DNA from: Actinocorallia herbida
Lineage (GTDB): Bacteria > Actinomycetota > Actinomycetes > Streptosporangiales > Streptosporangiaceae
NCBI RefSeq assembly: GCF_003751225.1
Contig: NZ_RJKE01000001.1
Span: 930,001-994,000, forward strand
Direction: 5' to 3'
DNA length: 64,000 nucleotides
A program made the position numbers and the translations under genes. The notes under the pieces are model-generated. The model ran no database searches. It worked only from the letters and a program-made list of their open reading frames with translations, and was not told the origin of the DNA. Positions 6,958 to 25,579 of the stretch are shown in pieces. How positions within the stretch are numbered: the stretch's first letter is position 1; each line of letters starts with the position of its first letter.

Positions 6958-7509
6958 TCAGTCGCCCGCCTCGTCGAGCGAGGGGAAGATCATCGAGGAG
7001 ATGTCGAAGTACAGCTGCTCGGGGTAGGGCATGAAGGTGACCTCGCGGAAGGCCTGGTCGTCTCCGGCGCTCTCCATGATGAAGGTGCCGTAGTCGAGGA
7101 ACTGGCCCTGGATCGGGCGCTCCAGTTTGATGTCGGTCACCTTCTTGAGCGGGATCATGCCGACCCGCCGGGCGATGAGCCCCTGGATGTACATCAGCCG
7201 CCGCTCGGTGACGATGAAGAACTCCACCGACCAGGTCAGCACCCGCCAGATGAGCCTGCCCACGAGGTAGAGCCAGCCGAACCACACGATGAGGGTGAGG
7301 ATGCCGCCGCCGAAGTAGCGGCTGAGCACCCCGGCGAGGATGAGCCCGCCGAACACCTCGGCCACCGGCCGCAGCAGCGCCGCGGGGTGCCGGCGCACCG
7401 CGATGACCTGCTCCTCGTCGGCCATGAGGTAGTGCCGGATCGTCCTGGACCTTGACTTGTCGCGTACGACCATCACGTCGTTGAAGCCCACGGGTCCAGG
7501 ATTCCACAT
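6958..7509 (-). CDS. Membrane protein with bacterial PH domain
   Basis: 183-residue protein with a hydrophobic hairpin (AEVFGGLILAGVLSRYF and ILTLIVWFGWLYLVG) followed by a bacterial PH (DUF304-type) domain: FFIVTERRLMYIQGLIARRVGMIPL is the typical signature, then VTDIKLERPIQGQFLDYGTF. Such proteins are membrane-anchored and of undefined function. The ATG at 7509 has no clear ribosome binding site; an ATG at 7473 is an alternative giving 171 residues. It is divergent from the winged-helix regulator at 7565, with 55 bases between. Confidence 0.8.
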   Translation of the reverse strand: MWNPGPVGFNDVMVVRDKSRSRTIRHYLMADEEQVIAVRRHPAALLRPVAEVFGGLILAGVLSRYFGGGILTLIVWFGWLYLVGRLIWRVLTWSVEFFIVTERRLMYIQGLIARRVGMIPLKKVTDIKLERPIQGQFLDYGTFIMESAGDDQAFREVTFMPYPEQLYFDISSMIFPSLDEAGD

Positions 7510-7564
7510 GGGAAAGCCGCTGTAACTCTATATACTCGACCAAGTTAGTGTGTAATATCGGTTC

Positions 7565-8029
7565 ATGGACGCCATGACAGCCGCCGCGAAAGTGGAGGGC
7601 ATCCCCGCCGACCAGGGTCAGCTGCTCGGGGTGGTCCCCATGGAGGGCACCGACAGCGCCCTCGTCATAGTCGGTCACATCGTGCCTCTGAGCAGGGAGG
7701 GCGAAGTGTCCGTAGCGCCCGTTCTCCCCGACGACACAAGGATCGTGCACGACGGCCTGACCGTGGACGAGGTTTCCCGGTCCGCCCACGTGGACGGTCG
7801 GAAGATCCCCCTCACCTACCAGGAGTTCGAGCTGCTCGCGCACCTCACGGCCAGTCCCGGCCGGGTGCACTCGCGGGTCCAGTTGCTGCGCGCGGTGTGG
7901 GGTTACTCCGAGGCCGGCTCGGTGCGCACGGTCGACGTGCACATCCACCGGCTGCGCGGAAAGCTCGGCCCGTACCGCGACCGGATCGTCACCGTGCGCC
8001 GCCTGGGTTACATGTACACGCGCCGCTGA
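7565..8029 (+). CDS. Winged-helix (OmpR/PhoB-type) DNA-binding protein without receiver domain
   Basis: 154-residue regulator. The C-terminal 90 residues are an OmpR/PhoB effector domain: LTYQEFELLAHLTASPGRVHSR, then LLRAVWGY, then the recognition region RTVDVHIHRLRGKLG and the wing VTVRRLGYMY. The N-terminal 60 residues are not a receiver domain: no acidic pocket or phospho-acceptor Asp region can be found and the length is too short. It therefore is not a standard response regulator. No histidine kinase gene adjoins it; the next gene downstream is a conservon sensor 327 bases away. Target genes are unknown; the divergent PH-domain gene is a candidate. Confidence 0.85.
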   Translation: MDAMTAAAKVEGIPADQGQLLGVVPMEGTDSALVIVGHIVPLSREGEVSVAPVLPDDTRIVHDGLTVDEVSRSAHVDGRKIPLTYQEFELLAHLTASPGRVHSRVQLLRAVWGYSEAGSVRTVDVHIHRLRGKLGPYRDRIVTVRRLGYMYTRR

Positions 8030-8237
8030 CGCGCCGCGAGGGCGTTCCGGTATGCGTTAAGAGTGCTCCGCGCGGGCCGGCGGCCGGGTGGGCCCCGGGT
8101 GCGCGCGCGGGATGAGGGCGACGGGTGCGCTCGCGCCTTCCATTTCCCTGCCCACCGAGTTTCGGTCGGGCGATGACGCGGAGTTTTCGTGCGTGAAGTC
8201 CGAGTCTGAAAGGTGCGGGCCGCTATCGGCCATCACA

Positions 8238-8293
8238 GTTAACAAGAGCCTCAAATGTTAACAGGAATCAATGTTGACCCGGCTGCACGTGCA
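8238..8293 (+). promoter_or_regulatory. GTTAACA repeats and a palindrome upstream of cvnA; rest of the 327-base gap otherwise empty
   Basis: The non-coding stretch 8030-8356 contains GTTAACA at 8238-8244 and again at 8257-8263 (19 bases apart, about two helical turns), a related GTTGACC at 8273, and the palindrome TGCACGTGCA at 8284-8293. These could be operator or promoter elements of the conservon. A strong purine-rich site (GGGGGCGGTGAG) precedes an ATG at 8326 that is out of frame with cvnA. I see no gene in the gap. Confidence 0.4.
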
Positions 8294-8356
8294 CGGGCAC
8301 GATGATCTCCCAAGGGGGCGGTGAGATGACGGCTATCGAAAGATTGCGTAGGTGTC

Positions 8357-10642
8357 ATGGCTTCGCCCAAGCCCAAGCCCCGGACGTTCGGCGTCCGCAG
8401 CAGGATCGCACTGCTCCTGGTCATTCCCGTGCTCTCGCTCATCGTGCTCTGGGCGTTCACCGCGCGGGTCACCCTGTCCGACGCGGTCGACACCTACCGC
8501 CTCCAGACCGTCTATGACGGGGTGGGAGACCCTGGCAGGGCCCTCGTCGCCGCGCTCCAGGACGAGCGCCGCCAGAGCGGCCTGCACCTCGCGGGCGGCC
8601 AGGGCATGGGAGGCCCGTCCTTCCAGCGGCTGAACGCCGCGCGCGCCGCGGTCGACGACGCCGAGGAGGACTTCCGCGCCAAGGCGCTCACCGGTGACGT
8701 CGCCGACGCCTCCGACGCCGACGCCCAGAAGCTGCTCGCCGCCTTCACCGAGGCGCTCGACGCGCTGCCCGAGGTGCGCGCGGGGGTCGACTCCGGCGCG
8801 CTCAAGCCCGCCGACGCGGTGGCCGGGATCAGCCCGATCATCCTCGCGGGCCTCACCGCGGTGAACGACCTCCTCATCTCCGACACCGTGCGGGTCTACG
8901 AGAAGTCCGAGGCGCTGGTCTCCTTCTCCTGGGCGCGCGAGTTCATCCTTCGCGAGGACGCCCTGGTCGCGCCGATCGCGGCGGGCGGGGCCGGCCGGAT
9001 GACGGTGCCGCAGTACCAGCAGTTCGGCATCTGGTTCATGGGCCACACCCAGATGACCCAGATGTCCATCGGGAGGCTCGGCGCCGACCTCCAGCCGCAC
9101 GGCATGGCCATCATGAACGACCCGAGCTTCAAGCAGCTCATGGGCCTCGAGATCACCGTCCAGAAGTCCGTCGGGGCCCCCAGGCTGCCCAAGGCGGTCC
9201 TGGAGGGCTGGGAGCCCACGGTGACCGCCCTGATGGCCGTCTGGGACCCGCAGATGGAGGCCGCGGCCGGCAAGCTGCGCGCGGAGGCCGACGAGATCAC
9301 CGAGGACGTCTACTTCCGTCTGTGGCTCGCAGGCGGCCTCGGACTCCTCGCCGTCATCCTGTCGATCGTGCTGAGCGCCTGGCTCAGCCGCGGCCTGGCC
9401 CGCGACATCAAGGACCTCCAGACCGCCGCCCGCGAACTCGCCGAGCACCGGCTGCCCTGGGTCGTCAGCAGGCTGCGCCGCGGCGAGAAGGTCGACCTGT
9501 CGGCCGAGCTGCCGCCGCCCGGCGTCGAGAGCCGCACGACCGAGGTCGCCGCGGTCGGCGACGCGCTCGGCATGGTCCGCCGCACCGCCCTGGAGGCCGC
9601 GATCGGCGAGGCCCACCTGCGCGACGGCATCAGCCGGGTCTTCCTCAACCTCGCCTGGCGCAGCCAGTCCCTGCTGCACCGCCAGCTGCGGATGCTCGAC
9701 GCGCTGGAGCGGCGCGCGCCCGACCCCGACACCCTGAACGACCTGTTCCAGCTCGACCACCTCACCACCCGCATGCGGCGGCACGCCGAGGGACTGATCA
9801 TCCTGTCCGGGGCCGCGCCCGCGCGGGCGTGGAGCCGTCCCGTCCACTTCGCCGACGTCCTGCGCGGCGCCGTCGCCGAGGTCGAGGACTACACGCGCGT
9901 CGAGGTCTCCTGCAACGCGCCGGTCGCGCTCGCCGGGGCCGCGGTCACCGACGTCATCCACCTGCTGGCCGAACTCGTCGAGAACGGCACCGCCTACTCG
10001 CCGCCGCCCACCGAGGTGTTCGTGCACGGCGAGGCGGTCGGCAACGGGTTCGCCGTGGAGATCGTCGACCGGGGCGTCGGCCTGTCCCCGGAGGAGTTCG
10101 CCGAGCTCAACCGGCGCCTGATCGAGGTGCCCGACTTCGACCTCGCCGACAGCGACAGGCTCGGCCTGTTCGTCGTCTCCCGGCTCGCCGCCCGGCACGG
10201 GATCCGGGTGACGCTCCAGCCGTCGGCCTACGGGGGCGTCACCGCGATCGTGCTCATCCCGCACCGCCTCGTGGTGCCCGAGTCGCAGATCTCCGAGCGG
10301 CTGCCCGCGGGCCAGATGCCCGCGCTGGAGCAGGCCGCGACCCCTGGTGAGGCGCCCCGCACGGGCCCGAACGGCAGGTACGCGCCGGGCAGGTTCACCG
10401 CCGAGTTCACCCCGGAGGGCGTGCCGCCGCAGCGCCCCGCGCCCCCCGCGGCCCCCGAGGCGTCCGCCGGGCGGGCGCAGGAGTTCGGCCGCGGCCTCTT
10501 CCCCGAGCCGCCGCCCGCGGAGCCGACGACCAACGGCCACATCGTGCCGCCCCGCCCGTCGCGCGGGGGTGACCTGCCGCGGCGGGTGCGCCGCAAGCGG
10601 TTCGGCCAGGGCGGACCGGAGGCGGGCGATGGCGAGGTTTGA
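8357..10642 (+). CDS. cvnA: Conservon sensor, histidine-kinase-like membrane protein (first locus)
   Basis: 761-residue membrane sensor. After a short cytoplasmic tail there is a helix (IALLLVIPVLSLIVLWAF), a long extracytoplasmic region of the nitrate/nitrite-sensing (NIT) type, a second helix (LWLAGGLGLLAVILSIVLSAWL, about residues 318-340), a HAMP-like linker, a dimerisation-like block (LDHLTTRMRRHAEGL), and a GHKL ATPase domain with an N-box (LLAELVENGTAYS), G1 (DRGVGLS) and G2 (LGLFVVSRLAARHG). The C-terminal 100 residues are Pro-rich and probably disordered. This is the CvnA architecture. Its last 14 bases overlap a DUF742 gene, but no roadblock or GTPase gene follows, so the conservon is incomplete here. 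Start is the first possible in frame; its ribosome site is weak. Confidence 0.88.
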   Translation: MASPKPKPRTFGVRSRIALLLVIPVLSLIVLWAFTARVTLSDAVDTYRLQTVYDGVGDPGRALVAALQDERRQSGLHLAGGQGMGGPSFQRLNAARAAVDDAEEDFRAKALTGDVADASDADAQKLLAAFTEALDALPEVRAGVDSGALKPADAVAGISPIILAGLTAVNDLLISDTVRVYEKSEALVSFSWAREFILREDALVAPIAAGGAGRMTVPQYQQFGIWFMGHTQMTQMSIGRLGADLQPHGMAIMNDPSFKQLMGLEITVQKSVGAPRLPKAVLEGWEPTVTALMAVWDPQMEAAAGKLRAEADEITEDVYFRLWLAGGLGLLAVILSIVLSAWLSRGLARDIKDLQTAARELAEHRLPWVVSRLRRGEKVDLSAELPPPGVESRTTEVAAVGDALGMVRRTALEAAIGEAHLRDGISRVFLNLAWRSQSLLHRQLRMLDALERRAPDPDTLNDLFQLDHLTTRMRRHAEGLIILSGAAPARAWSRPVHFADVLRGAVAEVEDYTRVEVSCNAPVALAGAAVTDVIHLLAELVENGTAYSPPPTEVFVHGEAVGNGFAVEIVDRGVGLSPEEFAELNRRLIEVPDFDLADSDRLGLFVVSRLAARHGIRVTLQPSAYGGVTAIVLIPHRLVVPESQISERLPAGQMPALEQAATPGEAPRTGPNGRYAPGRFTAEFTPEGVPPQRPAPPAAPEASAGRAQEFGRGLFPEPPPAEPTTNGHIVPPRPSRGGDLPRRVRRKRFGQGGPEAGDGEV

Positions 10643-11006
10643 CGAACGGTGGGTCGACGACGACGCGGGGCCCGTGGTGCGGTCCTACGCGTTCACCCGG
10701 GGCCGCACACGGCCCCGGGGGGCGACCCTGGACGTGGTGACCCTCCTGCGGGCGACGGGGCGGGAGCCGCCCTGGGGCACCCGGCTGTCCCGGGAGGACA
10801 CCCGGCTGCTCCGGCTCTGCCGGGCGTCCTCGGTACTGGCGGACCTGGCCTCCGACCTCGGTCTGCCGCTCGGCGTGGTGAAGGTGCTCGCGGGGGAGCT
10901 CATCCACCTCGGGCTCCTCGAGGTGGCGCGGCGGCCCGGTCCGGTCCGGCCGCACACCGACCGCGCACTGCTGCAGAGCGTCCTCGACGGGCTGCGCGCG
11001 CTATGA
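10629..11006 (+). CDS. cvnC: Conservon DUF742 protein (first locus)
   Basis: 125-residue DUF742 protein. It opens with DERWVDDDAGPVVRSYAFTRGRT, the usual DUF742 pattern, and has a winged-helix-like middle (LCRASSVLADLASDLGLPLGVVKVLAGELI) ending in VLDGLRAL, almost the same end as the second locus (IDGLRAL). The ATG at 10629 overlaps cvnA by 14 bases. In standard conservons a roadblock/LC7 protein (CvnB) lies between A and C and a GTPase (CvnD) follows; both are absent here. The gene converges on the polyprenyl diphosphate synthase gene at 11043. Confidence 0.88.
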   Translation: MARFDERWVDDDAGPVVRSYAFTRGRTRPRGATLDVVTLLRATGREPPWGTRLSREDTRLLRLCRASSVLADLASDLGLPLGVVKVLAGELIHLGLLEVARRPGPVRPHTDRALLQSVLDGLRAL

Positions 11007-11023
11007 CCGGCCGGTTCCCGGCG

Positions 11024-11055
11024 GGATCAGGCCAGGCGGGGATCAGGCCAGGCGG
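11024..11055. repeat. Perfect 16-bp tandem duplication spanning a stop codon
   Basis: GGATCAGGCCAGGCGG occurs at 11024-11039 and again at 11040-11055. The second copy includes the stop of the minus-strand polyprenyl diphosphate synthase gene (11043-11045), so it looks like a slippage duplication in a convergent intergenic gap of 36 bases. Confidence 0.7.
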
Positions 11056-12065
11056 CGCACGACGTACTCGGCGACCGCCCGCAGCCCCGGCGTCGCGCCG
11101 CCCCCGATCTCGTCGATGATCGCCAGTGCCGCGGCGAGCTCCTGCTCGGCGAGGTCCGCGGTGAAGCGGCGGCCGCCGGCCTTCTCGATGAGGTCCGCGG
11201 CGCGCAGCGCCCTGGCCGGGTCGTCCGGCCGGCCCGCGAGCAGGTCGGCGAGGCCCGCGGTCCCCGCGCTCAGTGCCGCGACGACCGGGAGGCTCTTCTT
11301 GCCCTGCCGCAGGTCGTTGTGCACGGCCTTGCCCGTGACGGCCGGGTCGCCCCAGATGCCCAGCACGTCGTCCACCGCCTGGAAGGCCAGCCCCAGGTGG
11401 CGGCCCATCCGGTCCATCAGCCCGGCGCCCGCCGCGTCGCCCCCGCCCAGGATCCAGCCGACGGAGGCGGCGCAGCCGAGCAGGGACGCGGTCTTGCCGA
11501 CGGCCATCGCGATGTACTCGTCGACGGTGACGGCCTGGGGCCCTGACCAGGCGCGGTCCTCGAAGGCGCTGTCGGCGGCCTGCCCGTTGACCAGTTCGAC
11601 GAGGACCCCGGTGAGCCGAGTGACGGCTTCGGCGTTGCCGCTCCGGGCGAGGGTGTCGAGGGCCAGCGCGAGGAGGCCGTCCCCGGCGAGCACGGCGGCC
11701 CCGATGCCGTAGGCCTTCCACGCGGTCTGCCGGTGCCTGCGCAGCTCGTCGCCGTCCATGATGTCGTCGTGCACGAGCGAGAAGGCGTGCACGAACTCGA
11801 CCGCGACGGCACCGGGCGCGGCGTCCTCGGGGCGGCCGCCCGCCGCCGCGGCGGCGAGCCCGGCGAGCGCGGGCCGCACGCCCTTGCCGCCGTCGCCGTC
11901 ACGCGGTGTGCCGTCGGCCTCGCGCCATCCGAAGGTGAATCCGGAGATCTGACGTGGTCCGGGGTGCAGCCGATCGGCGGCGTCCTGCATGGCCGGGCGC
12001 ATCCAGCGTCTGGTTTCGTCGAGTATCCCGGCGACTCCGGGAATCAGTGTCTGCTGGGTCATCAT
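11043..12065 (-). CDS. Polyprenyl (probably geranylgeranyl) diphosphate synthase
   Basis: Trans-isoprenyl diphosphate synthase of 340 residues, condensing IPP with allylic diphosphates. The first aspartate-rich motif is VHDDIMDGD, followed by RRHRQTAWK. The second site reads DDVLGIWGDPAVTGK, the form common in actinobacterial GGPP synthases, followed by DLRQGKKSLPVV. The ATG at 12065 was chosen because GAGAGGG lies just upstream; a frame extension to 12137 lacks one. The gene is divergent from the P450 gene and sits in a locus with class I and class II terpene cyclases, so a C20 product is the reasonable inference. Chain length cannot be proved from sequence. Confidence 0.88.
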   Translation of the reverse strand: MMTQQTLIPGVAGILDETRRWMRPAMQDAADRLHPGPRQISGFTFGWREADGTPRDGDGGKGVRPALAGLAAAAAGGRPEDAAPGAVAVEFVHAFSLVHDDIMDGDELRRHRQTAWKAYGIGAAVLAGDGLLALALDTLARSGNAEAVTRLTGVLVELVNGQAADSAFEDRAWSGPQAVTVDEYIAMAVGKTASLLGCAASVGWILGGGDAAGAGLMDRMGRHLGLAFQAVDDVLGIWGDPAVTGKAVHNDLRQGKKSLPVVAALSAGTAGLADLLAGRPDDPARALRAADLIEKAGGRRFTADLAEQELAAALAIIDEIGGGATPGLRAVAEYVVRRLA

Positions 12066-12118
12066 GCGGCCCTCTCTCACGACTGCGATGGCGCCGATAT
12101 TCAAGGGTGCCAAAGAAG

Positions 12119-12174
12119 GATCATCGAATGAAACCATTTCTCGGTTTCATTGTTGTAAGTATCTTTCGATGATC
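12119..12174. promoter_or_regulatory. Nested inverted repeats in the divergent synthase/P450 control region
   Basis: GATCATCGAA (12119-12128) is the exact inverse of TTCGATGATC (12165-12174). Inside lies a second perfect inverted repeat, AATGAAACC (12127-12135) and GGTTTCATT (12143-12151). The surrounding sequence 12100-12260 is clearly less GC-rich than the genes, as expected for a promoter region serving both divergent genes. The regulator is unknown. Confidence 0.55.
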
Positions 12175-12266
12175 GGGTGGTCGCGGAGAGTCATTTCTAT
12201 AAATGTTCGTTGCAGAGAGTTGATCATGCCTCACGCGGTGTATTTATGTGTGTGGGAGGTCACATG

Positions 12267-12288
12267 AACATGTCCGACTTGTCATGTT
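12267..12288. promoter_or_regulatory. AACATG-N10-CATGTT inverted repeat upstream of the P450 gene
   Basis: AACATG (12267-12272) and CATGTT (12283-12288) form a perfect dyad around CCGACTTGT. A related CCGGACTTGTCGGA occurs at about 12327-12340. Both lie between the divergent synthase and P450 starts. The dyad is a candidate operator. Confidence 0.45.
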
Positions 12289-12403
12289 GAAGGTGGCTTG
12301 ATCCGCCCAATGGATCATGAAACACTCCGGACTTGTCGGATTCATCCTGGTCTGGTCTGCTCCGGGGAGGGTCGGCCGCCGCTCGGGAAAGAGGCACCGC
12401 AAA

Positions 12404-13759
12404 ATGGCTCTGGACACAGGTGTGAGACCAGCGCGGGACGCACGGAAGTTGCCCGTCTACCGCGACATTCCGAGCTTTCTCCGTGACCCTCTGGGTACAT
12501 TCGAGGAATTGGGCAGGCAGGCCGACGGCGACATCGTCCGGCTGGACGCCAAGGTCCTCAGTCCCTACCTCGTGACCAAGCCCGAGCACCTCCAGCACAT
12601 CCTGCGGGCCAACCAGGGCAACTACGCCCGCGGTGGCATGTTCTACGCGCCCCTGGACCGCCTCTTCGGCGACGGCATCCTCGGCCAGAACGAGGACGCC
12701 TGGATGCACAGCCGCCGCATCATCCAGCCGATGTTCGCCGCCCGGCACATCAAGCAGATCCAGTCCGACATCACGGGATTCATCAACGAGGGACTCGACC
12801 CCGTCGAGAAGGCGGCCCGCACCGGCGCCCCCGTAGACACCCTCGACCTCATGGCGTCGATCGTCACCAAGGCCATCGTCGGCGTGATCTTCGGCCAGCG
12901 GATCACCCGCGAGCAGGTCGACGACCTCGCCGAGGCCACCAACGCGATCATCCCTTCCATGATTCCGCGCGTCGTCACCCCGTTCCTTCCCCGCTGGATC
13001 CCGCGGCCGAAGGACAAAGAGTTCAATGACGCGATCAAGACGTTCGACAAGCACATGTACGCCGTCGCGGAGGCGACCCCGCAAGAGGGCGACGACGACC
13101 TCCTGAGCCTCCTGCTCGGCGCCCCCGACCCGCACGGCCTGCCCGCCTCGCCCAAGTGGCTGCGCGACAACTTCTCCGGCGTGTACGGCGCGGCCAGCGA
13201 GACCACGGTCTCGGCCATGGTCTGGGCGATGCCGATCCTGTGGGAGAACCCCGAGGTCTACGCCAAGCTGTGCGCCGAGGTGGACGAGGTCGTCGGATCC
13301 GACCCGGTCTCGCCCGAGCACCTGCCGAAGCTCGTCTACACCAAGCAGGTCATCGACGAACTGCTGCGGTACATGCCCGTCGGCTGGCTGTTCAGCCGGG
13401 TCGCCCTCGGCGAGGACGTCATCGACGGCACCCGCATCCCCAAGGGCGCCGACATCCTGATCAGCCCGTACCTCACCCACCGCAGCCCGCTGTTCTGGGA
13501 CCGGCCCGAGGAGTTCGACCCCGAGCGGTTCGCGCCCGGCGCCCCGATTCCGCACCGGTACGCCTATTTCCCGTTCGGCGGGGGAGCACACATCTGCATC
13601 GGCAACCACCTGTTCGCCGTGGAGGCGCTGGCGCTGCTCGCCGGGTTCGTCAGCCGCTTCCGGCTCACCTCGGTGACGCCGGAGAAGCCGACCCCGGTGG
13701 TCGGCGCGACCCTTCGGCCGTTGGAACGCGTGATGATGACCGTCAGGCCGGCCCGCTGA
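12404..13759 (+). CDS. Cytochrome P450
   Basis: Heme-thiolate monooxygenase of 451 residues, soluble type. The heme-binding loop is FPFGGGAHICIGNHL with the thiolate Cys near residue 398. The K-helix ExxR is in DELLRYMP, and the I-helix has GAASETT in place of the usual AGxxT. I start at the ATG at 12404, preceded by GAAAGAGG; a longer frame from 12317 would add a basic 29-residue extension that does not look like a P450 N-terminus. It leads the plus-strand set P450, class I cyclase, class II cyclase, so it probably oxidises the terpene product. The redox partner is not encoded nearby. Confidence 0.9.
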   Translation: MALDTGVRPARDARKLPVYRDIPSFLRDPLGTFEELGRQADGDIVRLDAKVLSPYLVTKPEHLQHILRANQGNYARGGMFYAPLDRLFGDGILGQNEDAWMHSRRIIQPMFAARHIKQIQSDITGFINEGLDPVEKAARTGAPVDTLDLMASIVTKAIVGVIFGQRITREQVDDLAEATNAIIPSMIPRVVTPFLPRWIPRPKDKEFNDAIKTFDKHMYAVAEATPQEGDDDLLSLLLGAPDPHGLPASPKWLRDNFSGVYGAASETTVSAMVWAMPILWENPEVYAKLCAEVDEVVGSDPVSPEHLPKLVYTKQVIDELLRYMPVGWLFSRVALGEDVIDGTRIPKGADILISPYLTHRSPLFWDRPEEFDPERFAPGAPIPHRYAYFPFGGGAHICIGNHLFAVEALALLAGFVSRFRLTSVTPEKPTPVVGATLRPLERVMMTVRPAR

Positions 13760-13793
13760 CCAGCGGACGCGCCACGAAGCACGAGGACGTGCG

Positions 13794-14636
13794 GTGAACG
13801 ACCTGCTCGACGCCCGGGCCTGCGGCATCGCCGCCGCGGTCTCCGGCCAGGCCCAGCGGCGGATGCGCGGCTGGGCCGCGAAGTACCCGGGCCTGTACGA
13901 CAAGCCCGAATTCGACCCTGCCCTCTACGGCACGCTCGCCCAGGCCGCCGCGTTCGCCGGCCCCTGGTACGGCGCCGACCAGCTCGACGCGGCCAACAAG
14001 ACCTGCCTGTGGGCGTTCGGCCTCGACTGGCTGGTGGACTACCAGGCCAAGTCCGAGGACGAGGTCACGGCGCTGATCGCGCGGGTCAAGGCGGTCGCCG
14101 CAGCCGAGGCCGAGCCCGACGACGAGCTGACCGCGTTCCTCGCCGAGCTGCGCGAGGACCTCCCGCAGGACCCGGCCCTGCGCGCCCTCTGGCGGGACGA
14201 GCTGGGCGTCATGCTCGACGGGATGGCGCTGGAGTGGCGGTGGAAGTCCGAGGGGCCCCGTCCGGACCTCGACGGCTACCTCGCCAACGCCGACAACCTC
14301 GGCTTCTCCTTCGTCTTCTTCGCGCACTGGATCGCCAACGGAGCCGCCGGGGACCTCCCCGCGCTGCGCGACGCGAGCCGGGTCGTCCAGCGCGTCATCC
14401 GGCTGCTCAACGACCTCGGCACCTACGAGCGCGACCTCAAGTGGGGCGACCTCAACGCGCTCCTGCTGCCGGGCACCGGCAAGGACGCCGTCGAGGCGCG
14501 CATCGAGGAGCTGATGGCCGACGCGCGGCGGCTGCTCGCGCCGCTGCCGCCCGAGCACGGCGGCTACATGCGCCGCCAGATGGAGTTCTGCTCCGGGTTC
14601 TACGGCATCACCGACTACTGGGGAGCCGAGCTGTGA
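13794..14636 (+). CDS. Class I terpene synthase with atypical metal-binding motif
   Basis: 280-residue all-alpha class I terpene synthase, which would ionise a prenyl or cyclised diphosphate. The NSE/DTE-type motif is clear: NDLGTYERD at residues 206-214 (Asn206, Thr210, Asp214), preceded by a helix with Arg residues. The first aspartate motif is non-standard: at the expected position residues 78-82 read DWLVD, lacking a DDxx(D/E) pair. The gene's stop overlaps the GTG of the class II cyclase gene, so the two are coupled. The pairing implies sequential action: class II protonation-initiated cyclisation of GGPP followed by class I ionisation. The exact product is unknown. Confidence 0.82.
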   Translation: MNDLLDARACGIAAAVSGQAQRRMRGWAAKYPGLYDKPEFDPALYGTLAQAAAFAGPWYGADQLDAANKTCLWAFGLDWLVDYQAKSEDEVTALIARVKAVAAAEAEPDDELTAFLAELREDLPQDPALRALWRDELGVMLDGMALEWRWKSEGPRPDLDGYLANADNLGFSFVFFAHWIANGAAGDLPALRDASRVVQRVIRLLNDLGTYERDLKWGDLNALLLPGTGKDAVEARIEELMADARRLLAPLPPEHGGYMRRQMEFCSGFYGITDYWGAEL

Positions 14637-16132
14637 GCCCCCTGGACGCCCGCGCCCAGGAGATCGTGGACGGCCTGCTCGGCCAGCCGTGGGGGCGGTC
14701 GTCCCCGTCGGTCTACGAGACCGGCAGGCTCGTGGCGCTGACCCCCTGGCTCATCGGGCACGAGGCGCGCGTCAGATGGCTCGTGGACGCCCAGCGGCCC
14801 GACGGCGGATGGGGACCGCCGCAAGGGCCCGGCTACCGGATCGTGCAGACGCTCAGCGCCGTGGACGCGCTCCTGTCCGTCGCCGACCCCCGTTCGGCCG
14901 AGGCGGCCGAGCGGGGTCTCGCGTTCGCGCGCGGGCTGCTCACCGATCTGCCGCCGCTGCCCGACATGCCGGCGATCGAGCTGATCTCGGCGTCGCTGAT
15001 CCGCGCGGTCAACGACCGGCGGCCGGGCGCGCTGCCCGCCCCGGCGGCGCTGGACGACGGGACGCTCGACCTCGTGCGCGGCCTCGCCGCGAGCGGGGAC
15101 CCGCTGCCGGTGAAGCTGCTGCACGCGCTGGAGGTCCTCGGCCCCGGCGCGGTCGGGCTCGCCGCCGCCCCGGTGGAGCAGACCGGCACCGTCGGGGCCG
15201 CGCCCGCGGCGACCGCGGCCTGGCTCGGCCCGGTCGCGCCGCCCGCGCACGACCCGGCGCGCAGGTTCCTGGAGACCGCGGCCCGCCAGTACGGCGGGCC
15301 CGTCGCGCCGGGGCTGCCCATCACCGTCTTCGAGCGCGGCTGGGTGCTCGTCGCGCTCGCCCGCGCGGGCCTGTCCTTCGCGGTCCATCCCGAGCTGCTG
15401 CTCAGCCTCGCCGACCCGATGGGCGAGCACGGCGCGGCCTGCGCCGCCGGTCTCCCGACGGACGCCGACACGACCTCCGGGGCGCTGTACGCGCTCGCCC
15501 TCGTCGGCAGCGCGATCCCGCCGGACCCGCTGCTCGGCTACGCCACCGAGACGCACTTCTGCACCTGGCCCAACGAGCAGGGCAGGTCGGTGACGACCAA
15601 CGCGCACGTGCTCGAGGCGTTCGGCCACGCGCTCGCGCGCCGCGCCGACCCCCGGTACGCCGAGGCGGCCGCCAAGGCCGCCGCGTTCCTGCGCGACACC
15701 CAGCGGCCCGAAGGGTTCTGGGACGACCGCTGGCATGTCTCGCCGTATTACGCGACCATGTCGGCGGCCCTCGCGCTCGCCGAGTACGGAGGTCCGGAGA
15801 GCGCGCAGACCGTCTCCAGGGCCGTCGCCTGGGTCCGCGCGACCCGCGGCGCCGACGGAGGCTGGGGAATCTGGGGCGCGACCGCGGAAGAGACCGCGAT
15901 GGCCCTGCACGTCCTGCTCCTCGCCGACCCCGCGACGGGTCCCGCCGACGCCGACGTGCGCGCCGGAGCCGCCTTCTTGAAGCGGGCGGGGAACGACCAC
16001 CCGGCCCTCTGGCACGACAAGGATCTGTACCTTCCCGCGGCGATCGTCGAGGCGACCGTGCTCGCCGCGCTGCACCTCACCGAGGGCGCCCTGGGGCACC
16101 GCCGACGCCTGGACGACGTGTTGGTCACGTAG
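14633..16132 (+). CDS. Class II diterpene cyclase (prenyltransferase/squalene-oxidase repeat fold)
   Basis: 499-residue protein with QW-like repeats (RPDGGWGPPQG near residue 55, GADGGWGIWGA near the C-terminus, QRPEGFWDD between) and the catalytic acid motif DADTT at residues 277-281. That is a DxDTT variant of the DxDD acid of class II cyclases, such as I recall for the mycobacterial halimadienyl diphosphate synthase. The protein lacks a class I domain, in line with the separate class I gene just upstream. GTG at 14633 overlaps the previous TGA. Predicted role: protonation-initiated cyclisation of GGPP to a bicyclic diphosphate. Confidence 0.85.
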   Translation: MSPLDARAQEIVDGLLGQPWGRSSPSVYETGRLVALTPWLIGHEARVRWLVDAQRPDGGWGPPQGPGYRIVQTLSAVDALLSVADPRSAEAAERGLAFARGLLTDLPPLPDMPAIELISASLIRAVNDRRPGALPAPAALDDGTLDLVRGLAASGDPLPVKLLHALEVLGPGAVGLAAAPVEQTGTVGAAPAATAAWLGPVAPPAHDPARRFLETAARQYGGPVAPGLPITVFERGWVLVALARAGLSFAVHPELLLSLADPMGEHGAACAAGLPTDADTTSGALYALALVGSAIPPDPLLGYATETHFCTWPNEQGRSVTTNAHVLEAFGHALARRADPRYAEAAAKAAAFLRDTQRPEGFWDDRWHVSPYYATMSAALALAEYGGPESAQTVSRAVAWVRATRGADGGWGIWGATAEETAMALHVLLLADPATGPADADVRAGAAFLKRAGNDHPALWHDKDLYLPAAIVEATVLAALHLTEGALGHRRRLDDVLVT

Positions 16133-16350
16133 AAGCATCCTCATACTCCGGAACGCATTTCTCAGACTTATCTGGAAGATGCTGTGATGTTGTCGTTTAC
16201 TGCGATGCTCACCGACCGGGGTTGCTATCGTGTCTGACCGTCGATCGGAATCGGTACCGCACTTCCAGGGCCGTGTGATTCGACTTTGTTAACGGGACGC
16301 CGGGCCGAGCTCGACGATCCCCCGTCTATGTGCGATGGAGCGGCTGTAAT

Positions 16351-18606
16351 ATGCGCCTCCGCAATTCTCGGGTGCGGACCAAAATCACGGCACTCCTGCT
16401 CTCGCTCGCCGCGCTGTGGGTGTTCGCCGCGTGGGTCACCCTGCGTGAGGGCGTCAACCTGCTCTGGGTCCAGCAGATGGACCAGCGGATCTCGACGCCC
16501 GGTGACGTGCTCGTCATCAAGCTCCAGGAGGAGCGCAGGCTGTCGATGATCCTCGCCGGCCAGCGATCGCCGGAGAACCGCCAGGCCCTGCTCGACAAGC
16601 GGGCGGAGACCGACGCGGCGAGTGCCGAGTACAAGCGCCTCGCCGACTCGACCACGGTGCGGATGGCGGCCGACGACACCCTCGAGCTCAGGATCGACTC
16701 CTCGTTCAGCGCGCTGACCGACCTGGATCAAGCCCGTGCCTGGTTCGACAGCCCCAACTCCCAGTACGTCGAGCACGCCAGCACGATGTACACCGAGGCC
16801 GTCACCGCGATGTTCCGGGTGTACGACGGCATGGCGACCCTCGACGACGACAAGTTCGCCAACGACACCCGGACGCTGGTGAGCATCAACCGGGCCCGTG
16901 AGCTGTTCTCCCAGGAGGACGCCCTGGTGTCCGGCGTGCTGGCGAACGGCAGGTTCTCCACGGAGACCTACAACGACTTCATGCAGCTCGTCGGCGCCCA
17001 GCAGCACGCCTACAAGGAGGTCGCGCAGAACCTGGAGGAGTCGTTCCCCGAGGCCGCCGCGCGGATCAACAAGAACGAGGTGCGGGAGAAGGCCACCAAC
17101 CTCGAGAACATGCTGATCGACCTGCCCAACCCGAAGAAGCCGATCCGCGTGATCACCCTTCCGGAGTGGAGCGCGGCGTCCAAGGCGTGGTTCGACGACA
17201 CCTACGACATCATGCGCGACTCCGGCGACACGCTCGTCGACGACTCCGTGCCGATCGCGACGGGTGTCATCATCCGCCTGATCCTCGCCGGTGGTCTGGG
17301 CTTCTTCGCGGTCGTCGCGTCCGTCGTGCTGTCGGTCACCACCGCGCGGCACCTGGTGCAGCAGCTCGAGCGGCTCAAGGAGGCGGCCAACGAACTGGCC
17401 GACGTCCGGCTGCCGAACGTGGTCGAGCGGCTGGGCCACGGCGAGACCCTGGACGTCAAGACCGAGGCGCCGCCGCTGGAGTTCGGTGACGACGACATCG
17501 GCCAGGTGGGCCAGGCGTTCAACGCGGTCCAGGAGACGGCGATCCGCACCGCGGTCGAGCAGGCCGAACTGCGCCGCGGCATCCGCGACATCCTCCTGTC
17601 GCTGGCCCGCCGCACCCAGGCCCTCGTGCACCGGCAGCTGACCCTGCTGGACGTCATGGAGCGCCGCGAGATCGACACCGAAGAGCTCGAAGACCTCTTC
17701 AAGATCGACCACCTCGCGACCCGTATGCGGCGCAACGCGGAGAACCTGATCATCCTGTCCGGCGCGACCCCCGCGCGCGGTTGGCGCCGTCCGGTGCCGA
17801 TGGTCGACGTGGTCCGCTCCGCGGTGTCCGAGGTCGAGGACTACACCCGCGTCACCGTGATGCCGATCGACGAGGTCCACCTCGTCGGCCGGGCCGTCGC
17901 CGACATCGCGCACCTCCTCGCCGAGCTCATCGAGAACGCGGTGTCGTTCTCGCCGCCCTACACCTACGCGCAGATCTCCGGCCACATGGTGGCGTCGGGC
18001 TACGCGATCGAGGTGGAGGACCGCGGCCTCGGCATGTCGGACGAGAACCTCGAGCTGATCAACCAGCGCATCGCCGACCCGCCGGAGTTCAACCTCTCCA
18101 GCTCGGTCCAGCTCGGCCTCTACGTGGTCGGCAAGCTCGCCGAGCGGTACGGCATCCAGGTGATGCTCAAGCGTTCGCCCTACAAGGGCACGACCGCGGT
18201 GGTCATCATCCCGCGGGAACTCATCGAGGAAGGAGAGTCCGGCGCGCCGTCGAAGCCTCTGACGGTCGTCGGGGCGTCCATGCCGGAGAGCACCGACTCG
18301 CCGAGCCGGAACGGGGAGCTGTTCACCGTCCCCGCCCTGGTTCCCCCGCCCGCGCCCGCTGAGGCGCCGCCGGTCAACGCACCGTCGGCAGCCGATGATC
18401 CGTCGCAGTCCTCGACGACACCGTCGGGTCTGCCGGTACGGGTACCGCAGGCAAGCCTCGCCTCCCAGCTGCGGGAGGAACCCCTTGAGGCACCTGTCGA
18501 AGACGATCCAGGCCGCTCGCCCGAGGAGATCCGCAGGATCGTGGGCGCCTTCCAGAGCGGCACACTGCGCGGCAGGGCCGCCTCCGTTGAGAGTGAGACC
18601 GAGTGA
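16351..18606 (+). CDS. cvnA: Conservon sensor, histidine-kinase-like membrane protein (second locus)
   Basis: 751-residue CvnA sensor. Helix 1 is ITALLLSLAALWVFAAWV, an extracytoplasmic NIT-type domain follows, helix 2 is IIRLILAGGLGFFAVVASVVLSV (about residue 310), then a HAMP-like segment, the LDVMERRE/IDHLATRMRRNAENL helix, and a GHKL ATPase (LLAELIENAVSFS, EDRGLGMS, LGLYVVGKLAERYG). A Pro/Ser-rich tail ends the protein. ATG 16351 is used, with GGAGCGG upstream; an in-frame start 21 bases earlier is possible. Its stop overlaps the cvnB start, and all four conservon genes overlap in order, so this locus is a complete conservon. The upstream gap 16133-16350 holds no gene. Confidence 0.92.
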   Translation: MRLRNSRVRTKITALLLSLAALWVFAAWVTLREGVNLLWVQQMDQRISTPGDVLVIKLQEERRLSMILAGQRSPENRQALLDKRAETDAASAEYKRLADSTTVRMAADDTLELRIDSSFSALTDLDQARAWFDSPNSQYVEHASTMYTEAVTAMFRVYDGMATLDDDKFANDTRTLVSINRARELFSQEDALVSGVLANGRFSTETYNDFMQLVGAQQHAYKEVAQNLEESFPEAAARINKNEVREKATNLENMLIDLPNPKKPIRVITLPEWSAASKAWFDDTYDIMRDSGDTLVDDSVPIATGVIIRLILAGGLGFFAVVASVVLSVTTARHLVQQLERLKEAANELADVRLPNVVERLGHGETLDVKTEAPPLEFGDDDIGQVGQAFNAVQETAIRTAVEQAELRRGIRDILLSLARRTQALVHRQLTLLDVMERREIDTEELEDLFKIDHLATRMRRNAENLIILSGATPARGWRRPVPMVDVVRSAVSEVEDYTRVTVMPIDEVHLVGRAVADIAHLLAELIENAVSFSPPYTYAQISGHMVASGYAIEVEDRGLGMSDENLELINQRIADPPEFNLSSSVQLGLYVVGKLAERYGIQVMLKRSPYKGTTAVVIIPRELIEEGESGAPSKPLTVVGASMPESTDSPSRNGELFTVPALVPPPAPAEAPPVNAPSAADDPSQSSTTPSGLPVRVPQASLASQLREEPLEAPVEDDPGRSPEEIRRIVGAFQSGTLRGRAASVESETE

Positions 18607-19013
18607 TGCAGAAGACCGGAGCCGGCGCCGATCTGGCGTGGCTGTTGGACGACCTGGTCAAGCGGGTCAACGAGGCCGAGCACGCGATCGTGCTTTCGGC
18701 CGACGGCCTGCTGATGGCCCAGTCGCACGCGATCAGCCGGGACGACGCCGAGCATCTTTCGGCGGTCTCGGCGGGTATCCAGAGCCTGGCCAAAGGCGCG
18801 GGCGAGAGGTTCGGCGGCGGCGCGGTGCGCCAGACCATCGTCGAGATGCGCTCGGCGTTCCTCCTCGTCACCGTGGCTGGGCAGGGCGCCTGCCTTGCCG
18901 TGCTGAGCACGGAGGACGCCGACGTCGGCCTCATCGCCTACGAGATGGCGATGATGGTCACCAAGCTCGGCCACCATCTCTCCACCCCGGCGCGGGTGAC
19001 GGAGTCGGCGTGA
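18603..19013 (+). CDS. cvnB: Conservon roadblock/LC7-domain protein
   Basis: 136-residue roadblock/LC7 protein, expected to act as scaffold or GTPase regulator for CvnD at the membrane. The fold is evident from LAWLLDDLVKRVNEAEHAIVLSADG at the start, the ERFGGGAVRQTIVEM strand-helix region, and LLVTVAGQGACLAVLS. Start codons GTG 18603 and ATG 18606 lie side by side and both overlap the cvnA stop. Its stop overlaps the cvnC GTG. Confidence 0.92.
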   Translation: MMQKTGAGADLAWLLDDLVKRVNEAEHAIVLSADGLLMAQSHAISRDDAEHLSAVSAGIQSLAKGAGERFGGGAVRQTIVEMRSAFLLVTVAGQGACLAVLSTEDADVGLIAYEMAMMVTKLGHHLSTPARVTESA

Positions 19014-19402
19014 GCTACCCGCCGCAGGAGCCGGATCCCGACGCTCGCTGGACCGATGATGGCGCCGGTCCCCTCGTCAGGCCGTATGTGATGACCGGCG
19101 GACGGCTTCAGCCCGTCCGCGGCACCTTCGACCTGATCACCCTGGTGGAGGCGACGGGACCCGTCCCGGCGCATGTGATCGGGCTCGGCCCCGAGCATCT
19201 GGCGATCCTCCGCCTCGCTCAGACGATGATGTCGGTGGCGGAGCTCACCGCGCACCTGGACCTTCCTTCGGGAACGGTCCGGGTGCTGCTGGGCGACCTG
19301 CTCGACAAGGGTCACGTCACCGTCCAGGAACCCACACCGGAGATCGACATGCAGGACCTCAGGATGTACCAGGCGGTGATCGATGGCCTCCGCGCCCTCT
19401 AG
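19010..19402 (+). CDS. cvnC: Conservon DUF742 protein (second locus)
   Basis: 130-residue DUF742 protein: DARWTDDGAGPLVRPYVMTGGR at the start, a winged-helix-like centre (LRLAQTMMSVAELTAHLDLPSGTVRVLLGDLL), ending IDGLRAL. The GTG at 19010 overlaps the cvnB stop (GTGA). A longer frame upstream runs through cvnB and is a shadow. It overlaps cvnD by 20 bases. Confidence 0.92.
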   Translation: MSYPPQEPDPDARWTDDGAGPLVRPYVMTGGRLQPVRGTFDLITLVEATGPVPAHVIGLGPEHLAILRLAQTMMSVAELTAHLDLPSGTVRVLLGDLLDKGHVTVQEPTPEIDMQDLRMYQAVIDGLRAL

Positions 19403-19973
19403 CGCTCCGGGTACGCGCCGCCGGATGCCGACCGCGATCAAGATCCTCGTCGCGGGCGGCTTCGGCGCGGGCAAGACGACCCTCGTCGGCACGGTCTCGG
19501 AGACCAAGCCCCTGCGCACCGAGGAGATCCTGACCGACCGCGGCGTCGGCGTCGACCATCTGGACGGCGTCGAGACCAAGAAGACGACGACCGTCGCGAT
19601 GGACTTCGGCCGGATCACCTTCGGCGAGGAGTTCGTGCTCTACCTGTTCGGCACCCCCGGACAGGAGCGGTTCTGGTTCATGTGGGACGAGGTCGCGCTC
19701 GGCGCGCTGGGCGCGGTCGTGCTGGCCGACACCCGGCGGCTCGCCGACTGCTTCCCGGCGATCGACTACTTCGAGCGCCGCGGCACCCCGTTCATCGTCG
19801 CGGTGAACTGCTTCGAGGGCGCGCAGCGCTACGAGGTGACCGACGTCAGGCAGGCGCTCCAGATCCCGCCGGAGATCCCGGTGCTGCTCTGTGACGCCCG
19901 CTCCAAGGAGTCCTCCAAGGAGGTCCTCATCACGCTGGTGCAGCACGCGATGCGCCAGCGCGCGGCCCGCTAG
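19383..19973 (+). CDS. cvnD: Conservon small GTP-binding protein
   Basis: 196-residue GTPase of the MglA/conservon ATP-GTP binding class. P-loop GGFGAGKTT near residue 25, switch region with Thr-rich KKTTTVAMDFG, G3 as GTPGQERF, and a G4-like segment VNCFEG in place of NKxD. It is expected to cycle with the roadblock protein CvnB under control of CvnA. The last codon's TAG overlaps, tail to tail, the stop of the minus-strand glnH-like gene, both stops being read from CTAG. Confidence 0.92.
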   Translation: MASAPSSAPGTRRRMPTAIKILVAGGFGAGKTTLVGTVSETKPLRTEEILTDRGVGVDHLDGVETKKTTTVAMDFGRITFGEEFVLYLFGTPGQERFWFMWDEVALGALGAVVLADTRRLADCFPAIDYFERRGTPFIVAVNCFEGAQRYEVTDVRQALQIPPEIPVLLCDARSKESSKEVLITLVQHAMRQRAAR

Positions 19974-20845
19974 CTGCAGCCTTCGAACTGCGGCACGTGC
20001 CCGGTGGTCTCCAGCCCCGCAGGCTGGAACCATCGGGCCAGTAGTTTTTCTGCGGTCCCGTCCTGGTACATCGCGATCAGGGCGCGGTTGACCGCCTCGC
20101 ATCCGCCGATGTCGTCCTTGTGCAGGCCGATGCCGTACTTCTCGTCGGTGAACTTGGCCTTGACCAGGCGGAACGCCTCGGGCCTGCGCAGCGCGAACCC
20201 GGCGAGGATGACGTCGTCGGTGGTGAGCGCGTCGAGCATCCCCGCCTCCAGCATCTCCACGCACTCGCCGTAGGTGGTCGCGGGCACGAGCTTCGCCCTG
20301 ATCCCCAGCTCCACGGTGACGCGCTTCCAGGAGATGGAGCCGCCCGCCTTGCACAGCCGCTTGCCGCGCAGGTCGTGCACGCTGTGGATGTCGGCGTCGT
20401 CCTCGCGGACCATGATGTCCTGGTGGCCGATGATGTACGGCCCGGCGAAGTTGACCTGAAGGCGCCGGTCGGGCGTGATGGAGTACGACGCCACCACGAG
20501 GTCGACCTTCCGTTCGCGCAGCAGCCGCTCGCGGTCGCCGGAGGTGATCGACACGAAGTCGGGCGCCGCGCCGAGATACGCCGCGACATACCGGGCGACG
20601 TCCACGTCGAAGCCCTCGAACTCACCGTCCTCGGTCTGCTGTCCGATGCCCGGCTGGTCGAACTTCACCCCGATCCGCAGGGTCTTCCTGCCCTCGATGC
20701 CCTTGGGCTCCTCCTCGGCGCAGCCCGCGAGCGCGAGCGCGAGAGCGCCCGCCAGCACCGGCGCGAGCAGGCGGCGCAGCCCGCCCCCCATGGTCCGTCC
20801 TCTCTTCCGGCGGCGCCGGATCTCGGTCTCGCGGGGTGTGCTCAT
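19970..20845 (-). CDS. glnH: Glutamine/glutamate-type solute-binding lipoprotein (GlnH-like)
   Basis: 291-residue family 3 extracellular solute-binding lipoprotein. A basic N-terminus precedes LLAPVLAGALALALAGC with the lipobox. The mature protein has the amino-acid receptor pattern GFDVDVARYVAAYLG, then VVASYSITPDR, then GSISW and LTTDDVILAGFA. No permease or ATPase gene is adjacent, so it is unlikely to serve an ABC importer here. Instead it overlaps (ATGA) a four-helix membrane protein gene and lies downstream of pknG, matching the mycobacterial pknG-glnX-glnH sensing unit, in which GlnH binds aspartate/glutamate. Function by that analogy is inference. Confidence 0.85.
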   Translation of the reverse strand: MSTPRETEIRRRRKRGRTMGGGLRRLLAPVLAGALALALAGCAEEEPKGIEGRKTLRIGVKFDQPGIGQQTEDGEFEGFDVDVARYVAAYLGAAPDFVSITSGDRERLLRERKVDLVVASYSITPDRRLQVNFAGPYIIGHQDIMVREDDADIHSVHDLRGKRLCKAGGSISWKRVTVELGIRAKLVPATTYGECVEMLEAGMLDALTTDDVILAGFALRRPEAFRLVKAKFTDEKYGIGLHKDDIGGCEAVNRALIAMYQDGTAEKLLARWFQPAGLETTGHVPQFEGCS

Positions 20846-22263: not shown

Positions 22264-22303
22264 GGGGGTGCTCCTCCGGCGCTGGGCGCGGTCTTCGGCG
22301 CGT

Positions 22304-25407: not shown

Positions 25408-25579
25408 CAATTCCCCATTATCGGACAAGCCCCGCCTTTCGGTATTGTTTGCCCCCACCCCGCCTCCGCCGCTGCACCGTGCGTGACCACTGCTTTCCTC
25501 TTTGGATGCGAGATTCCCGCAACCGGTTCAATCAGGGGGGCATCATGCGAAAAACCGCGGGGTCACGGACGGGCCAAAG

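Follow-up and report, generated by a model that had tools for sequence, protein, structure and literature searches.

Positions 8357 to 19973 of a 64,000-nucleotide stretch of the Actinocorallia herbida genome (contig NZ_RJKE01000001.1, positions 930,001 to 994,000; hereafter the window) hold a compact set of diterpene biosynthesis genes lying against genes of conservons, units in which a HATPase sensor (CvnA), a roadblock protein (CvnB), a DUF742 protein (CvnC) and a small GTPase (CvnD) are encoded in this order. The gene order is cvnA1, cvnC1, a geranylgeranyl diphosphate (GGPP)-type synthase gene (GGPPS) on the minus strand, a cytochrome P450 gene, a class I diterpene synthase gene, a class II diterpene cyclase gene, and cvnA2, cvnB2, cvnC2 and cvnD2 (Table 1). 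An earlier note on this DNA had placed the synthase, the P450 and both cyclases between a cvnA–cvnC pair and a full cvnA-B-C-D, and the motifs and our domain calls, made by Pfam and NCBIfam profile searches of the window proteins, confirm this layout. The active-site motifs of the locus enzymes are intact. Our survey of related genomes revealed that the downstream conservon, cvnA2-B2-C2-D2, is the partner of the diterpene block, with one conservon lineage tied to the class II cyclase.

Table 1. Features of the diterpene–conservon locus, in window coordinates
Feature	Positions	Strand	Length	Profile matches and motifs
cvnA1, sensor resembling a histidine kinase, first (incomplete) conservon	8357-10642	+	761 aa	NIT 87.7 bits; HATPase_c 35.8 bits
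cvnC1, DUF742	10629-11006	+	125 aa	PF05331 96.9 bits
GGPP-type polyprenyl diphosphate synthase (GGPPS)	11043-12137	-		PF00348 (polyprenyl_synt) 179.7 bits; motif DDIMD
Cytochrome P450	12317-13759	+		PF00067 204.9 bits; haem motif FGGGAHIC
Class I diterpene synthase, Sat1646-like	13794-14636	+	280 aa	PF19086 (Terpene_syn_C_2) 49 bits
Class II diterpene cyclase	14633-16132	+	499 aa	PF13243 (SQHop_cyclase_C) 65.5 bits
Intergenic region with conserved box GTTGCTATCGT at 16221-16231	16133-16350	+		promoter-like, judged from context in relatives
cvnA2, sensor histidine-kinase-like, NIT sensor domain	16351-18606	+		NIT 113.3 bits; HATPase_c 45.1 bits
cvnB2, roadblock/LC7 (MglB-type)	18603-19013	+		PF03259 (Robl_LC7) 87.9 bits
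cvnC2, DUF742	19010-19402	+	130 aa	PF05331 115.3 bits (on a slightly longer frame)
cvnD2, Ras-like small GTPase (P-loop GTPase)	19383-19973	+	196 aa	PF03029 116.4 bits; P-loop, G3 motif
OmpR-type DNA-binding protein without receiver domain, beside cvnA1	7565-8029	+		Trans_reg_C 82.7 bits, residues 78-150 only

The downstream unit shows the complete four-gene conservon order. CvnA2 carries an NIT sensor domain (PF08376, E-value 3.1e-32), LVHRQ and N-box motifs and, as GLPVR at residue 694, the LPxR motif that passages of PMC4316618 assign to the C-terminal extension of CvnA; CvnD2 has the GGFGAGKT and FGTPGQER motifs. Position 16351 is a likelier start for cvnA2 than 16330, and, by reading, 12404 is likelier than 12317 for the P450. 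The class I and class II genes share four bases (GTGA, 14633-14636), an overlap also found between cvnB2 and cvnC2. With 11 DUF742 loci in the genome (a single contig of 9.8 Mb), a random point would lie at most 3 kb upstream of one, on the same strand, with a probability of about 0.002. Class I terpene synthase matches occur at four places in this genome, and only the present locus is, by position, within 10 kb of a DUF742 gene.

The class II cyclase is closest, among solved structures, to the ent-copalyl diphosphate (CPP) synthase 5bp8 (E-value 4.6e-86, 293 bits), and its acid motif reads DADTT, in keeping with the DxDTT/DxDD pattern; the same motif region is present in relatives. The nearest solved structure to the class I enzyme is Sat1646 (PDB 7e4n, E-value 1.7e-51), whose form of the metal-binding motifs it shares (DWLVD and NDLGTYERD). 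According to passages of PMC9814573, Sat1646 turns CPP into isopimara-8,15-diene. The product is predicted to be a polycyclic diterpene, of the pimarane or isopimarane type judging by the nearest relative, with kaurane or other skeletons possible. The likeness to Sat1646 and 5bp8 does not fix the skeleton: A. geliboluensis, another strain of which carries the same block (L092), makes kaurane-type diterpenoids, from a cluster that is unnamed in the passages of that paper (PMC11857663). The top NCBIfam models for GGPPS score under their own cut-offs, as does that for the P450, an albaflavenone monooxygenase model (212 bits). CvnE accessory P450s accompany CvnA proteins without a sensor domain, as described in part of PMC13343842. 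Since CvnA2 carries an NIT sensor (113 bits), and with the P450 gene heading the cyclase operon, this P450 is better taken as a pathway enzyme.

We surveyed 250 genomes of the family from 68 genera. The class II cyclase was found in 142 genomes and 30 genera, the named carriers being Streptosporangiaceae and Thermomonosporaceae by their NCBI labels. A CvnA2-type sensor, defined as an orthologue match of at least 118 bits, was found in 135 genomes, and in 134 of these it lies no more than 6 kb from the class II gene (the median gap from that gene to the sensor part is 344 bp). The co-occurrence gives a Fisher p of 9e-60, for genomes that are not phylogenetically independent. A single genome (G113, 86% complete) among the 108 without a class II gene has the sensor. 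Eight genomes lack the class II gene though their genus-mates have it (G156, G211, G223, G053, G134, G184, G098 and G113), and the sensor orthologue is also gone from six of these eight. Another eight have the class II gene without a sensor of at least 118 bits (G124, G149, G163, G191, G197, G237, G240 and G234); in G149, G163, G191, G197, G237 and G240 it is followed by a CvnA tail only. These counts are less biased than those from the 80 named loci, which are the best 80 of 344. As a side observation, the G113 locus (L176) holds a tandem array of three conservons, of which the first is of the cyclase-linked type but has no cyclase.

At the level of single loci, the 132 class II loci were reduced to 115 non-redundant ones, in 107 of which the class II gene is followed by cvnB-C-D: 94 have a complete A-B-C-D, 12 a CvnA tail and B-C-D, and one B-C-D with no A detected. 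In another six, A is followed by the contig end, and two have no conservon (L070 and L206). A wider sample of 394 genomes of the class contained a close class II relative (E-value up to 1e-60) in 20, of which 18 belong to the same family and two to other families; outside the family, G430 has the complete block and G576 a 39% relative with a distant conservon upstream. In a CvnD tree, the 107 cyclase-linked copies and two class I-linked ones (G068 and G139) form one clade (support 97/98) that excludes nine CvnD paralogues of the window genome and five other conservons; the tree, with these nine paralogues and seven other conservons, holds only part of the family's conservons. Within the clade, genera mostly group together, with bootstrap values that are not fully settled. 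The earlier note had proposed to look for the gene order in actinomycete genomes, had named a lack of conservation in related genomes as an outcome that would refute its reading, and had called the arrangement unusual. The order turns out to be conserved family-wide, so that this refuting outcome does not apply; cyclases with a downstream conservon are the rule, and 'unusual' is the wrong word for that side. Family-wide conservation, together with the association of one conservon lineage with the class II cyclase, supports a link to terpene production at the level of gene linkage.

Variants of the unit bear on the nature of this tie. The space before cvnB is too short for a cvnA in 14 of the 107 loci (L054, L100, L101, L118, L122, L127, L137, L153, L157, L179, L180, L182, L068 and L209), and in 13 of them the C-terminal tail of CvnA can be read just before cvnB (sequences like ...PSGLPVRVPQANL...RIMGSYQRGTRRGR...). 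The full and tail states of cvnA require at least seven changes on the CvnD tree. Two motifs of the tail are nearly invariant, and constraint on the whole tail is weak (ratio of nonsynonymous to synonymous polymorphism, pN/pS, 0.65 vs 0.24 for cvnB; 10 loci). The stand-alone tail may be a working part. In G068 (L209) and G139 (L068), the class I and class II genes lie in divergently oriented operons, both of which continue into conservon genes of the same lineage, P450-class I-A-B-C-D standing beside class II followed by B-C-D. One explanation of the tie would be physical rather than regulatory, with conservon proteins at the membrane recruiting the cyclases or the P450. The retention of conservon genes by cyclases in separate operons (G068 and G139, and GGPPS-A-B-C-D in two loci of genus g48) and the 13 readable tails are consistent with such a scaffold. 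A cytoplasmic scaffold, however, predicts that the enzymes covary with the cytoplasmic kinase, whereas they covary with the extracytoplasmic sensor, and we regard this explanation as very improbable.

Covariation was measured as the rank correlation of pairwise distances over the 79 of the 115 non-redundant loci in which every part is present on the expected strand; this excludes loci with a CvnA tail, those cut by the contig end and those where no P450 or class I gene was detected. The sensor part of CvnA correlates at 0.70 with the enzymes, against 0.41 with CvnB-C-D and 0.40 with its own kinase; the kinase correlates at 0.76 with CvnB-C-D. By enzyme, the sensor reaches 0.63 with the P450, 0.57 with class II and 0.44 with class I. 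Scanning CvnA in windows of 60 columns shows the enzymes as the better partner up to about residue 300, where the sensor ends, and CvnB-C-D beyond it; the first window is a tie. Saturation was rejected as the cause: control sets of fast sites, namely the fastest kinase and CvnB-C-D columns, have a mean identity of 0.25-0.44 (0.41 for the sensor) and correlate with the enzymes at 0.49-0.53, below the 0.70 of the sensor, and the partial sensor–enzyme correlation given one such set is 0.64. PknG served as the species marker, using the best copy per genome, as some genomes have two or three copies; 21 of 74 have none at the cut-off, which left 50 of the 79 loci. In these 50 loci, CvnB-C-D correlate with PknG at 0.81, the enzymes at 0.52 and the sensor at 0.36. 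With PknG, CvnB-C-D and the kinase held fixed, the sensor–enzyme correlation is 0.68 (permutation maximum 0.18), and that between kinase and enzymes, given PknG and the sensor, is 0.02. When one locus per lineage is kept, the partial sensor–enzyme correlation is 0.61 (n=38, permutation maximum 0.24), 0.64 (n=22, 0.43) or 0.60 (n=15, 0.57, a thin margin). The covariation of sensor and enzymes outlasts the species-marker, fast-site and lineage controls.

Given this covariation and the co-occurrence, by which the outward domain goes with the pathway and the inner signalling machine with the species, we tentatively propose, at slightly short of an even chance, that a compact diterpenoid pathway and a dedicated receptor-type conservon form one inherited unit that may sense its product and control expression. 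GGPPS would make GGPP, which the class II enzyme would cyclise to a copalyl-type diphosphate; the Sat1646-like class I enzyme would convert this to a polycyclic diterpene, and the P450 would oxidise it. The extracytoplasmic NIT-type sensor of CvnA2 would perceive the diterpenoid, either the cell's own product or that of its kin, and CvnA2 would alter the state of CvnB and CvnC. These in turn would determine whether CvnD is in its GTP or its GDP state, and the output of CvnD may tune production or development. A more specific version, which we hold as rather doubtful, is that the diterpenoid is a hormone with a co-evolved receptor: the CvnA2 sensor would bind the P450-finished diterpene, NIT sensors of conservons would gain a ligand class of their own, and the family would inherit hormone synthesis and a G-protein-type receptor as one unit.

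Several results weigh against the receptor reading. In the survey, the 118-bit line was set after the data had been seen, the next match being an unlinked one of 112.7 bits in G098; that genome keeps a diverged cvnA-C-D, with no cvnB detected, without a cyclase. G113 likewise has a complete conservon and no cyclase in an assembly that is 86% complete, and G124 (L070) has a class II paralogue without a conservon. In the covariation analysis, fast control sites retain 0.39 with the enzymes at fixed sensor, and the signal is uneven, class I correlating at 0.50 with CvnB-C-D, 0.48 with PknG and 0.47 with the sensor (50 loci). At the lineage level, class II, the enzyme gene nearest to the sensor, correlates best (0.51-0.60 vs 0.50-0.54 for the P450). 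Horizontal exchange of a block reaching from the P450 into the sensor could produce the same covariation. Under this alternative, homologous recombination would exchange blocks spanning the P450 and the variable part of cvnA, breaking within the conserved kinase region, and the sensor would be inherited along with the enzymes without functional matching. The order P450-class I-class II-sensor, which puts the sensor beside class II, a crossover where cvnA becomes conserved, and the slight lead of class II at the lineage level all agree with it. The correlations, however, do not simply follow gene order: in the 50 loci they are 0.65 for P450 and sensor and 0.58 for class II and sensor, but only 0.28 for the P450 and class I (0.12-0.22 at the lineage level). 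Since these last two genes are adjacent, gene order alone fails to explain the pattern. Recombination also does not account for the fact that almost every cyclase-less genome lacks the sensor orthologue, and we consider this alternative quite improbable.

The remaining objections concern the fold of the sensor and the control of the operons. The structure of the CvnA2 sensor is predicted with high confidence to be a helical NIT fold (mean predicted local distance difference test score 91.9), and its only solved match with a Foldseek E-value below 0.001 is NasR (4akk; template modelling score 0.68, E-value 4e-5), so that by the model the nearest fold appears to be a nitrate-type sensor and not a lipid receptor. 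An operator shared by the conservon and the biosynthetic operon was not found in rough tests on conserved k-mers. Promoter-like boxes, taken from a reading of conserved k-mers, differ between the two transcription units. Before the P450 lies GATCATGTGATACT, with an upstream TTGA, and its 8-base core occurs in 74 loci (107 regions searched). The exact 14-mer is present once per genome in 66 of the 250 genomes; 65 of these copies are just upstream of the cluster on the class II strand, the exception being on a different contig, and the reversed control gave 0. This box has the appearance of a pathway-specific element. Its exact form is absent from the window. Before cvnA the box is TTGCTA.GGT with an upstream TTGAG, and TTGCTA occurs in 74 of 100 gaps between class II and cvnA (median 210 bp; 13 gaps exceed 1 kb and the others measure 81-244 bp); the window carries this type at 16221. 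As the boxes before the P450 and cvnA are distinct, the conservon is probably transcribed independently as well.

Scanning 7400-20900 for generic sigma-70 promoters gave no site. TGTTAACRGG, exact at 8256 before cvnA1 and at 16287 before cvnA2, was rejected as a common operator: allowing up to one mismatch gives three matches, a number within the range of chance (mean 1.14; 14 of 100 shuffles gave as many). Inverted repeats of differing sequence are present in the cvnA2 leader at 27 of 100 loci (20 shuffles: mean 15.9, maximum 19). Outside the block, no gene family occurs in more than 18 of 64 loci, and there is thus no widely conserved regulator gene at the level of rough gene calls, which clustered the class II gene itself in only 46 of the 64 and in which families were not annotated by profile.

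These results bear on another possibility, in which the conservon acts as a cluster-situated regulator. It would turn the diterpene operon on or off in response to something in the environment, for instance nitrate or a compound from a neighbour, and the diterpenoid would be the output and not the ligand. The NIT fold and the conserved promoter-like element GATCATGTGATACT of the biosynthetic operon fit such a regulator, and cvn8 represses the adjacent lanthipeptide cluster in Streptomyces coelicolor, according to passages of PMC8510531. Nevertheless, a sensor of environmental cues would not be expected to covary more strongly with the enzymes than with the kinase of its own protein, no family outside the block exceeds 18 of the 64 loci, and the window lacks the exact element; this explanation seems to us unlikely. 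The earlier note's suggestion that the sensor complex controls, or is physically tied to, terpene production is borne out as far as linkage, co-occurrence and covariation go. Control or contact gains no such backing, as the boxes differ and the rough tests yielded neither a shared operator nor a widely conserved regulator gene.

Conservons beside biosynthetic clusters are already known (PMC3617294, PMC4383371, PMC8510531 and PMC13343842, each in part). Indole prenyltransferase clusters likewise make up a small prenyl-derived pathway that is wide in actinomycetes, with a four-gene conservon in all clusters found there and a suggested signalling role; they differ in their product, a prenylated indole, in the upstream position of the conservon and in that the passages of the paper (PMC3617294) report no sensor–enzyme covariation. 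The cvn8-lan lanthipeptide cluster of S. coelicolor similarly combines a conservon with a biosynthetic cluster whose expression is altered by deletion, but CvnA8 has no extracellular sensor domain and is accompanied by CvnF8 (passages of PMC8510531 and PMC13343842), whereas CvnA2 has an NIT sensor and no CvnF was seen at the locus. The frankiamicin conservon fkmR1-R4 lies inside a natural-product cluster too, of a type II polyketide, and was the only such case known to the authors of the paper (PMC4383371, in part). On the enzyme side, the Salinispora terp1/sat isopimaradiene cluster shares a class I enzyme (Sat1646, the nearest to ours among solved structures), a class II enzyme and a P450, but 'histidine kinase' has 0 matches in the main text of PMC9814573. 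The aspT1/aspT2 pair for pimara-8(14),15-diene, from the related genus Actinomadura, likewise consists of a type I and a type II cyclase, and 'regulat' has 0 matches in the main text of PMC10055836. No diterpene-linked conservon is described in the titles and abstract starts of the open-licence literature searched, a weak absence, and neither a family-wide diterpene–conservon unit nor a pathway-covarying sensor was found there. The sensory inputs of CvnA proteins are largely unexplored, as stated in passages of PMC13343842. In more than half of the 250 family genomes surveyed here, the sensor is accompanied by a candidate pathway for making its ligand, which makes the question of CvnA input directly testable. 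The receptor reading, if true, would explain the retention of one diterpene pathway across many genera and would provide a handle for switching on silent diterpene clusters.

The upstream unit, cvnA1-cvnC1, has a different history. Profile searches between cvnA1 and GGPPS found no cvnB or cvnD, in line with the earlier reading of this conservon as cvnA and cvnC only. A conservon on this far side is seen in three Actinocorallia and in two loci of genus g48 (one lineage). A different form occurs in G068 and G139, whose class I operon has a conservon to itself. The idea of two conservons enclosing the cluster does not hold as a general arrangement, the upstream one being reduced and lineage-limited. 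The upstream spot holds A-B-C in A. populi, A-C in the window and only A, on a very long branch, in Actinocorallia API 0066; in the g48 loci (L058 and L071), GGPPS reads into a complete A-B-C-D, divergent from P450-class I-class II-A-B-C-D. CvnA1 groups with the upstream CvnA of A. populi, Actinocorallia API 0066 and the two g48 loci, apart from CvnA2, in a quick tree with no bootstrap and some long branches (that of the L082 copy is very long). On this grouping, an origin by local duplication of cvnA2 was rejected. cvnA1-C1 looks like a second, lineage-limited conservon lineage, seemingly reduced in Actinocorallia. The OmpR-type gene is retained next to cvnA1 in the two other Actinocorallia but in none of the 38 remaining loci compared, and its protein is a possible member of the unit.

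Past the downstream conservon, the minus strand at 19985-25458 encodes a solute-binding protein (by reading), GlnX, PP2C and PknG, and GlnX and PP2C are found at the same place in L058 and L071. Farther along the window, 59069-59660 (minus strand) contains a match of 175.7 bits to Rfam Sernc389, an antisense RNA family described from Saccharopolyspora.

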